Shown piece after piece: positions 13,062 through 16,057 of a stretch of DNA of 64,000 nt (its first letter is position 1; each line of letters begins with the position of its first letter). The DNA is from Nitrobacter vulgaris (GTDB lineage Bacteria > Pseudomonadota > Alphaproteobacteria > Rhizobiales > Xanthobacteraceae), in NCBI RefSeq assembly GCF_002028545.1, contig NZ_MWPQ01000049.1:124001-188000 (forward strand), in the 5' to 3' direction. Below the pieces are notes generated by a model. The model saw only the letters and a list, made by a program, of their open reading frames with translations. It was not told the origin of the DNA and searched no databases. The translations under genes were made by a program, and so were the position numbers.

Positions 13062-13793
13062 TTACTTCTTTTTGTCGCCGCCACCTGCGGGCGCCTTCGC
13101 TCCGCCACCTGCGGGCGCCTTCGCGCCACCGGCGGCCGCGCCTGCAGCAGCAGCAGCGGGAGCCGCACCGGCGGCGGGAGCCGCGGTGCCGGCCGCAGCG
13201 GCGGCGGCTGCCTTGAGTTCTTCCGCGTAGCCTGACGGCGGCACGATGGTCACCAACGTGACGTCCTCGCGTGCTAGCGGTTTCACGCCGGGCGGCAACT
13301 CAACGTCTGACAAATGGAGCGAATGGTTGATTTCCAGTGCGCCGACGTCGGCCTCGATGAACTGCGGGATGTTTTCAGCCGCGCACTCGACATCGATCGC
13401 GTGGGTCACGAGATTGACGGTGCCGCCGCGCTTCACGCCGGGCGCGACATCTGCCTTCAGCAGGCGAAGCGGAACGCTGACGCGGATGGTGGCGCCTTCG
13501 CCGAGCCGCATGAAGTCCACATGGATCGGCAGATCCTTGACCGGATCAAGGTGGAAGTCGCGCGGAATCACGCGGTGCTTCTTGCCGTCCAGGTTGATGT
13601 CAAAGATCGTCGTCAGGAAACGGCCCGCCAGAATGCGCTGACGCAGTTCTGGTTCTTCGACCGAGATCGGCTGCGGGGGCTGCTTGTTTCCATAGATCAC
13701 GCCCGGCACTCGGCCGGCGCGACGCTCAGCCCGGGCGGCCCCCTTGCCGCTCTTCGGACGCGCGTTCGCCTTCAATTCCCTGACGGTCGCCAT
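13062..13793 (-). CDS. rplY: 50S ribosomal protein L25/general stress protein Ctc
   Basis: Binds 5S rRNA. The 243 residues contain the L25 N-domain (RAGRVPGVIYGNKQPPQPISV) and the Ctc C-domain typical of alphaproteobacteria. A 50-residue Ala/Gly/Pro/Lys tail (AAAAAGTAAPAAGAAPAA then two GGAKAPAG units) follows. ATG 13793 is chosen because it starts the universal MATVRELKANAR and follows AAGGA; the frame upstream to 14093 is spurious. A T-tailed hairpin 30 bases before the start suggests attenuation. It heads ctc-pth-ychF. Confidence 0.96.
   Translation of the reverse strand: MATVRELKANARPKSGKGAARAERRAGRVPGVIYGNKQPPQPISVEEPELRQRILAGRFLTTIFDINLDGKKHRVIPRDFHLDPVKDLPIHVDFMRLGEGATIRVSVPLRLLKADVAPGVKRGGTVNLVTHAIDVECAAENIPQFIEADVGALEINHSLHLSDVELPPGVKPLAREDVTLVTIVPPSGYAEELKAAAAAAAGTAAPAAGAAPAAAAAGAAAGGAKAPAGGGAKAPAGGGDKKK
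13080..13127 (-). repeat. 24-base tandem repeat in the ctc tail
   Basis: Two 24-base copies (13080-13103 and 13104-13127), differing at one base, encode two GGAKAPAG-type units in the L25 tail. This suggests slippage-driven length variation of a disordered end. Confidence 0.85.
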
Positions 13794-13839: not shown

Positions 13840-14214
13840 CGTTGCACGTCACCGGCAAGCCTCCAGGGGTGCGGGGGCCATGAGACGTGGCGGCGTTCTA
13901 ACCGCAAACGCCCGAAATAACAAGAAATTGGGCTGAATTTTTCGAACTCTCCGGCTGTCGCGTAAGTCGCTTTTAGCCGTTGGACAGGCTGATCTTTCCG
14001 CGTCGGGGAGATTGAGAAAAGGCAGACCCAGGGTCGCCCCAAGAAGGCGCTTCGGTCGTACCCATGCATCGTAACGAGAGATTGCTGGGACAAGGATCAA
14101 CATCCGAAAATTTTCGAAGATGAAGCGATTGATCGCTCCTTTGAGAACAAGCGGCGTAGCCGTGCGACACACCAACCTCGTTATCGCCGAGGGTGTAGAC
14201 ATCATCCGGCGTCG

Positions 14215-14396
14215 GAATCTTTCGTCGATCATCGGATGATGCCGGACTCGCGGCAGGCGAGTCGCACCCGCAAGACTCGCGCAACGCGAGTCCCGAGTCC
14301 GTTTTGTTCACGGCGTAAACCGTCTCTGCTTTCGATCAGTTGTGGACGACGCGCGCTTTGCCTGTGGACGGACTCCAGGCGGCGTTGCGCCGATTC
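14215..14396. promoter_or_regulatory. dense cluster of GANTC (CcrM-type) sites with paired hairpins
   Basis: GANTC occurs at 14215, 14245, 14259, 14274, 14288, 14295, 14371 and 14392: eight sites in 182 bases, where about 0.7 is expected by chance. The second to fifth form two stem-loops with the same stem GACTCGC/GCGAGTC (14245-14263 and 14274-14292). CcrM methylates GANTC in alphaproteobacteria, and clusters often mark methylation-sensitive promoters. Confidence 0.55.
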
Positions 14397-14548
14397 CGCA
14401 AATCACATCACTTGATCCGCGCAGGACATCATCCTCATTCGATCAACGCGTGTGATGGATCGTCTGAAAGATTGATATCCGCCGCGTGCCAGCACCGGCC
14501 GTTCTATGAGTGCGTATCAACACAAGCAAAAGCAAGGATCGGGACGGC

Positions 14549-15049
14549 ATGTCGCTGCTCGAAGGCGCTATCGATTCCAAGAACAATCCGCTGGCGGTGG
14601 TCGAGGACATTGCCGCCACCAACGATTGGGCGTTCGAGCGTTCCGGCGAAGACGAAATCACAATCGTCTCGAAAGGCAACTGGACCGATTATCACCTCAC
14701 CTTCACCTGGATGGGTGAGATCGATGCGTTGCATCTCGCCTGCGCCTTCGACATGAAGATTCCGGTCGCCCGGCGCAGCGAGGCCCAGCGCGTGATCGCC
14801 GCGATCAACGAGCAATTGTGGGTCGGTCATTTCGATATCTGGACCCAGACCGGAACGATCATGTACCGCCATGCGCTTGTCCTTCCCGAGGGGCTGATTG
14901 CGTCGAACGCGCAGTGCGAGACCATGATGGCGGGCGCGATCCACGCCTGTGAGCGCTACTACCCGGCGCTGCAGTTCGTGGTCTGGGCCGGAAAGTCGGC
15001 GGCCGAGGCGATGACCGCCGCAATGTTCGACACCGAGGGCGAGGCGTAA
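14549..15049 (+). CDS. YbjN-domain protein
   Basis: The 166-residue protein has the YbjN fold pattern, which is related to type III secretion chaperones: two central beta/alpha halves (SKGNWTDYHLTFTWMGEIDALHLACAFDMKI and GHFDIWTQTGTIMYRHALVL). A conserved C-terminal helix follows (CERYYPALQFVVWAGKSAAEAM). ATG 14549 gives the usual alphaproteobacterial start MSLLEGAIDS; the frame upstream to 14510 lies in the leader. It is followed in the same direction by proC after 171 bases. The molecular role is unknown; enteric YbjN affects motility and stress genes. Confidence 0.85.
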   Translation: MSLLEGAIDSKNNPLAVVEDIAATNDWAFERSGEDEITIVSKGNWTDYHLTFTWMGEIDALHLACAFDMKIPVARRSEAQRVIAAINEQLWVGHFDIWTQTGTIMYRHALVLPEGLIASNAQCETMMAGAIHACERYYPALQFVVWAGKSAAEAMTAAMFDTEGEA

Positions 15050-15220: not shown

Positions 15221-16057
15221 ATGACGATAACGCCGGACATGCAAACTCTCGCGGATATTTCAGGCACTGTCGTTCTCGCCGGCGCCGGGAAGATGGGCAG
15301 CGCATTGCTGACGGGATGGCTCGCGCGCGGATTGGATCCGAAGCGCGTCATTGTGATCGAGCCATATCCTTCCGCCGATACCCGCTCGTTCGCCGCCGGC
15401 GACATTCGGCTGAATCCCGCAGCCGAGGAAATCGGTGACGTCGCGGCGCTCGTGATCGCGGTCAAGCCGCAGACCTTCGGCGACGCCGCTCCGACGCTGC
15501 GGCCGCTGGTGGGATCTCCGACCCTTGTGGTGTCGATCATGGCGGGCACGACGATTGCCATGCTCGACACGGCCTGCGGCGGCAACATCGTCCGCGCGAT
15601 GCCCAATACGCCTGCCGCGATTGGCCGCGGCATGACCGTGGCGGTCGCCGCGAAAGGTGTGAACGAGACACAGCGCACCGTGGCCGACGCGCTGCTGCGC
15701 GCGACCGGAGCGGTGGAATGGGTCGATGACGAAGCGCTGATGGACGCCGTCACGGCTGTGTCGGGATCGGGACCGGCCTACGTCTTCCTGCTCGCCGAGG
15801 AGCTCGCGCGCGCCGGCGTCAGCGCAGGTCTGCCTGCCGATCTCGCTGCAAAGCTGGCCCGCGAGACTGTCGCCGGGTCAGGCGAGTTGCTGCATCGATC
15901 CGATCTCGACGCCGCGACGCTGCGTCAGAACGTCACCTCGCCCGGCGGCACCACGGCCGCAGCGCTCAACGTATTGATGAGCGAGCACGGTCTGAAAGAA
16001 CTGATGACGCGCGCGGTGGCCGCCGCGACAAAGCGATCGCAGGAACTGGCGAAGTAG
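15221..16057 (+). CDS. proC: pyrroline-5-carboxylate reductase
   Basis: Last step of proline synthesis: reduces pyrroline-5-carboxylate with NAD(P)H. The 278 residues show the Rossmann N-terminus (VVLAGAGKMGSALLTGW), VIAVKPQTF, RAMPNTPAAIGRGMT and the C-terminal signature (LRQNVTSPGGTTAAALNVL). ATG 15221 follows AGGAAC. The ornithine aminotransferase at 17810 would supply the same pyrroline intermediate, so the two may form an ornithine-to-proline route, although they are on opposite strands. Confidence 0.95.
   Translation: MTITPDMQTLADISGTVVLAGAGKMGSALLTGWLARGLDPKRVIVIEPYPSADTRSFAAGDIRLNPAAEEIGDVAALVIAVKPQTFGDAAPTLRPLVGSPTLVVSIMAGTTIAMLDTACGGNIVRAMPNTPAAIGRGMTVAVAAKGVNETQRTVADALLRATGAVEWVDDEALMDAVTAVSGSGPAYVFLLAEELARAGVSAGLPADLAAKLARETVAGSGELLHRSDLDAATLRQNVTSPGGTTAAALNVLMSEHGLKELMTRAVAAATKRSQELAK

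Follow-up and report, generated by a model that had tools for sequence, protein, structure and literature searches.

A conserved, GANTC-bearing putative control region upstream of ybjN–proC in Nitrobacter and its relatives

The window analysed here, a stretch of 64,000 nucleotides of Nitrobacter vulgaris DNA, contains an intergenic region between rplY, which starts at position 13793 on the minus strand, and ybjN, whose ATG lies at 14549; the original prediction had correctly placed this gene-free region upstream of ybjN and proC. The gene ybjN is conserved in Alphaproteobacteria and has been little studied. A sequence scan found the pentamer GANTC eight times within 14215–14396, at 14215, 14245, 14259, 14274, 14288, 14295, 14371 and 14392. 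The features of the region, including two palindromes and four conserved blocks, are collected in Table 1.

Table 1. Features upstream of and including ybjN and proC (coordinates are those of the window)
Feature	Position	Strand	Conservation or support
GAATC, outermost site of the cluster, not conserved	14215–14219		GANTC in 1/9 Nitrobacter-genus genomes
Palindrome 1, GACTCGC-N5-GCGAGTC, with GANTC at 14245 and 14259; Nitrobacter-specific	14245–14263		GANTC in 9/9 and 7/9 Nitrobacter genomes
Palindrome 2, GACTCGC-N5-GCGAGTC, with GANTC at 14274 and 14288	14274–14292		GANTC in 9/9 and 8/9 (8/9 after allowing for a gap-placement artefact in the alignment)
Block I, GANTCCGKTTTGTTC (in the window GAGTCCGTTTTGTTC)	14295–14309		Found in 76 Bradyrhizobium-clade loci
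Block II, TGTGGACGA box, DnaA-box-like; TGTGGAC or TGTGGAT in relatives	14341–14349	+
Block III, TGTGGACGGACTC, second box and GANTC site 14371	14363–14375	+
Block IV, GTTGCGCCGATTCCGCAAATCACATCACTTGATCC, TTGC-N9-GCAA palindrome and GANTC site 14392	14384–14418	+
ybjN (PF10722), gene constantly adjoining the element	14549–15049	+	Pfam, 5.3e-31
proC, pyrroline-5-carboxylate reductase, downstream of ybjN	15221–16057	+	Pfam

The eight sites in 182 bases, five of them in the 55 bases 14245–14299, are as first described, but the assumed spacing of about 256 bases is not: GANTC occurs once per 383 bp in the window and once per 359 bp in the 1.236 Mb of the Nitrobacter-type genome over which its density was measured, so the site is rarer than had been supposed. 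When 167 sites were placed uniformly, none of 5000 trials gave eight within 182 bp, and a single one of 5000 dinucleotide-type shuffles of 14180–14420 reached that number. The cluster is the densest run in the 1.236 Mb sampled, every other run having six sites or fewer; the next densest, L359:15120–15245 and L334:6–153, have six each. The densest run of a sampled Bradyrhizobium-clade genome (G031), with five sites, likewise lies upstream of ybjN (locus L220). The window as a whole holds 167 GANTC against 338 expected from dinucleotide shuffles, about half, a shortfall that agrees with the published depletion of GANTC in Alphaproteobacteria (PMC3973325). Intergenic DNA of this class is generally enriched in the site (PMC3973325), and part of the local excess is therefore background.

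The most conserved part of the region, 14295–14418, lies past the hairpins and consists of the four blocks. These are conserved among nitrite-oxidising and root-nodule bacteria, being common to almost every one of 80 genomes of the Bradyrhizobium clade, and three of them (I, III and IV) contain GANTC. The 80 loci were gathered by YbjN, those closest to the window being from Nitrobacter. The GCAAATCACATCA of block IV is present in 80 of 81 sequences, the lone exception stopping at the end of its contig, and the TGTGGA boxes together with GTTGCGCnGATTCnGCAAATCACATCA are shared, nearly gapless, by every one of the 80 sequences whose upstream DNA was long enough. Two TGTGGAC words had been assigned to 14340 and 14363, with a likeness to replication-initiator sites described as faint. 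The second position is correct and the first is in fact 14341, and the description understated the case, as the words belong to an ultraconserved, evenly spaced array. A 26-base core occurs once per genome in 84 of 297 genomes of the family, representing 11 of its 47 genera; in other genera of the family a diverged form is often kept upstream of ybjN, with GAGTCAACTTGTCGCA replacing the first box. Outside the family, the number of core matches at two mismatches is about what chance predicts by our estimate. Four loci from distant families (L238, L239, L245 and L256) carry GTGGAC-N15-TTGCGACTC, which has the spacing of the Bradyrhizobium clade. A coding explanation of the core was rejected, third codon positions being, by inspection, as invariant as the others, as was a dispersed repeat, given the single copy of the element in the genome. 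Plasmid and tRNA searches of the region returned no match, and the region is not a mobile sequence.

The arrangement of the blocks is nearly as constant as their sequence. The TGTGGAC words of the window are exactly 22 bases apart, and among the relatives the distance from block II to block III is 22 bp in 73 of 80 loci, 21–23 bp in 79 and 32 bp in one, while that from block III to block IV is exactly 22 bp in all 80. Block I stands at distances from block II that cluster at 32–34, 43–48, 55 and 67–68 bp, so that the longer spacings shift by roughly whole helical turns. The concentration of spacings has a broad peak at 11–11.5 bp, measured on related sequences with their kinship uncorrected, and helical phasing is accordingly suggestive, short of proof. 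The spacing would fit proteins bound on one face of the DNA.

The array is a single-copy element, always upstream of ybjN, and was present at every YbjN-fetched locus with sufficient upstream DNA (80 loci). Since proC follows ybjN in 78 of the 80 loci, whereas rplY is the divergent upstream neighbour in just four, the element belongs to ybjN. The sequence upstream of ybjN in several other families ends, by inspection, a putative ubiK-like coding region on the same strand, which again indicates ybjN as the target. On the strength of the sequence comparisons, the region around the cluster is a cis-regulatory DNA element of ybjN–proC, real and selected, in which selection is clearest on the CcrM sites.

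The way in which the individual sites vary is informative as to what has been selected. Conservation of the cluster in relatives, a check proposed with the original prediction, was indeed found, the sites being kept as GANTC. Site 14371 reads GACTC in 67 loci, GAGTC in nine, GATTC in two and something other than GANTC in two, and is thus GANTC in 78 of 80. The central base of site 14295 in block I is T in 73, C in two and G in one of 76 loci, and among nine Nitrobacter genomes seven have GAGTC, GACTC or GATTC there. Site 14392 in block IV is GATTC in 80 of 80. As the GATTC of blocks I and IV hardly varies, GANTC could there be part of another protein's motif. The two hairpins with the identical stem GACTCGC/GCGAGTC exist as predicted, and Nitrobacter genomes have hardly any copy of GACTCGC-N5-GCGAGTC outside this locus. 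In four of the nine Nitrobacter genomes, the central pair of palindrome 2 is C.A, with GAATC facing GACTC, so that the stem is broken but GANTC retained, and compensatory changes were found in none of the nine. It therefore appears that the GANTC methylation site, rather than the hairpin, is under maintenance, and no support was found for a role of the hairpins as such.

GANTC is also over-represented upstream of ybjN in wider groups, exceeding shuffled sequences 2.7-fold in the Bradyrhizobium clade, 3.1-fold in the wider family, 1.6-fold in the order and 1.8-fold in the class; among 16 palindromic pentamers it ranks first in the family, order and class samples and second in the Bradyrhizobium clade. 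TGATTCG or CGATTCG is common upstream of ybjN in other genera, and GATTCG was found at 20 of the 30 loci in the order sample, where 4.2 would be expected, with a maximum of 11 in 300 shuffles. TATAnT followed by GATTCG, mostly at 12–14 bp and typically at 13, is present at 23 of the 36 loci in the family sample and at 15 of the 30 in the order sample, as compared with an expectation of about 0.01; if TATAnT is a −10 element, GATTC would lie near +8. Other Rhizobiales (for example L236, L240, L246 and L247) have TATATACTGATTC-N8-GATTCG, that is, two GANTC sites 13 bp apart directly after a TATA-type −10. In other Alphaproteobacteria, TTGC-N17-YANNNT is present in 15 of 28 loci against 0.66 expected, several of them with GANTC in the spacer. 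Motif searches of the order and class sets scored well above shuffles and recovered promoter-like patterns. By analogy, the TTGCGC in block IV is a candidate −35 element; no good −10 is visible after it in the Bradyrhizobium clade, and a consensus promoter scan of the region found no match. Words of the form TTAACnAT (TTAACGAT/TTAACCAT), which resemble the CtrA motif, occur in 48 of 80 Bradyrhizobium-clade loci against 0.4 expected (L016–L084), starting some 80–182 bp ahead of the anchor in block IV, and are absent from the Nitrobacter loci.

The genome encodes GcrA (a single match above the cut-off) and one CcrM-type methylase (likewise a single match above the cut-off, assigned by its RAMA domain alone). 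Methylation of GANTC sites reaches 99.77% in B. diazoefficiens (PMC4840208), and GcrA is thought to act at the subset YGAKTCK (PMC7987155). This pattern fits only two of the eight sites, 14258–14264 and 14273–14279 (minus strand), neither of them in the ultraconserved blocks; as the sites in those blocks fall outside YGAKTCK, control by GcrA remains presumptive. In outline, the CcrM reading put forward originally is supported: as at CcrM/GcrA promoters, GANTC sites are conserved in the promoter region, here the control region of ybjN–proC, and GcrA and a RAMA methylase are encoded. The identity of the bound proteins is what we infer, as are the methylation state, the transcription start and the effect on the cell cycle. 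We consider it reasonably probable that this is a control region of ybjN–proC in which GANTC is kept as CcrM sites and methylation modulates transcription over the cell cycle. Given that evolution keeps the methylation sites, the switching of this gene pair probably depends on the methylation machinery that follows the cell cycle.

Such control might operate as follows. Proteins would probably be bound on one helix face along the four blocks upstream of ybjN–proC, the TGTGGA boxes probably by DnaA or another regulator, and the GANTC sites would most likely be kept for methylation by CcrM. Passage of the replication fork would turn fully methylated GANTC into hemi-methylated GANTC, and GcrA or another methylation-sensitive factor, together with sigma-70 RNA polymerase, would modulate ybjN–proC during the cell cycle; Nitrobacter has added the two GANTC-bearing palindromes upstream. 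A bolder proposal, which we regard as speculative and rather unlikely, is that the fixed array of about 120 bp constitutes, clade-wide, a methylation-gated nucleoprotein switch, which would combine CcrM methylation and RNA polymerase with a DnaA-like protein so as to time ybjN–proC with fork passage at mid-replichore. Such a switch would be previously undescribed. It counts against methylation control of ybjN–proC in general that ybjN is absent from the main text of the GcrA/CcrM regulon literature examined. No description of the element was found in the literature open to search, which leaves out supplementary files altogether and the bulk of the subscription journals.

Alternatively, a dedicated transcription factor may bind the blocks as an array, GANTC being incidental to its motif and methylation having no part in the matter. 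The blocks are long, evenly spaced and conserved far beyond what GANTC would need, TTGC-N9-GCAA is palindromic, and GATTC is invariant in block IV and changed in only three of 76 loci in block I, all of which would suit such a factor. This explanation is nevertheless doubtful, since the variation confined to N at 14371, 14295 and the Nitrobacter palindromes is that of a GANTC site, and GANTC is enriched in orders that have no other upstream block in common. Moreover, no second TGTGGAC-N15-TTGCG composite was found among the other shared loci, so that no regulon is seen.

The TGTGGA boxes call to mind a different possibility, namely a DnaA-titrating or -reactivating locus, or a replication origin, where GANTC would serve in sequestration. 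The loci datA and DARS carry DnaA boxes away from oriC. The two TGTGGA(C/T) boxes, set at a 22-bp interval, look like DnaA boxes, TTATCCAC lies nearby in relatives, the density of GANTC is like that of known origins, and the locus is single-copy and mid-replichore. The boxes are, however, one to two bases off the DnaA-box consensus, and in other families the box is CGTGGACA, a poor DnaA box. As regards an origin, GC skew in a complete genome from the genus Nitrobacter indicates one near 0 Mb, with the locus at 2.73 of 3.40 Mb, and parS lies 0.8–1.5 Mb from the locus in five genomes; oriC is thereby ruled out, and the reading of the region as a replication origin is not upheld. Taken as a whole, this possibility seems improbable.

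A structured RNA (a leader, an attenuator or a small RNA) containing both hairpins is less probable still. The region does fold somewhat better than shuffles (z of −2.3 and −2.75), but it has no match in Rfam, the hairpins show no compensatory pair, the consensus fold of the conserved blocks is weak and without covariation of note, and block spacing shifts by helical turns; by these tests a structured RNA was rejected. Finally, a chance cluster or a by-product of two GC-rich palindromes can be dismissed with near certainty: two copies of one stem do supply four of the eight sites, but uniform placement never produced as many and the sites are conserved as GANTC.

So strongly constrained a control region with selected methylation sites indicates a tight, possibly cell-cycle-linked need for ybjN. 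The element also brings methylation, spacing and protein boxes together in a single short sequence, where each can be tested separately, in nodule bacteria too. It is closest in kind to the Caulobacter CcrM/GcrA promoters ctrA P1, mipZ and ftsZ, with which it shares GANTC in the promoter or leader, several sites per promoter, and a genome that encodes GcrA and a CcrM-type protein (PMC3667746, PMC7987155, PMC3973325). In contrast to these, a far longer and strictly spaced array of blocks is conserved here along with the sites, dependence on methylation is putative, and ybjN–proC is not among the targets described in the literature consulted. An unusual density of GANTC upstream of one gene is shared with the Agrobacterium gcrA and repABC-Ch2 promoters (six sites in 250 bp for gcrA; PMC11514494), although the gene is another one and the accessible part of that account describes no conserved, evenly spaced boxes. 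With datA and DARS, the element has in common short DnaA-box-like repeats in intergenic DNA away from oriC; unlike theirs, its boxes, which are imperfect, go with a single gene pair and lie in a promoter-proximal array.
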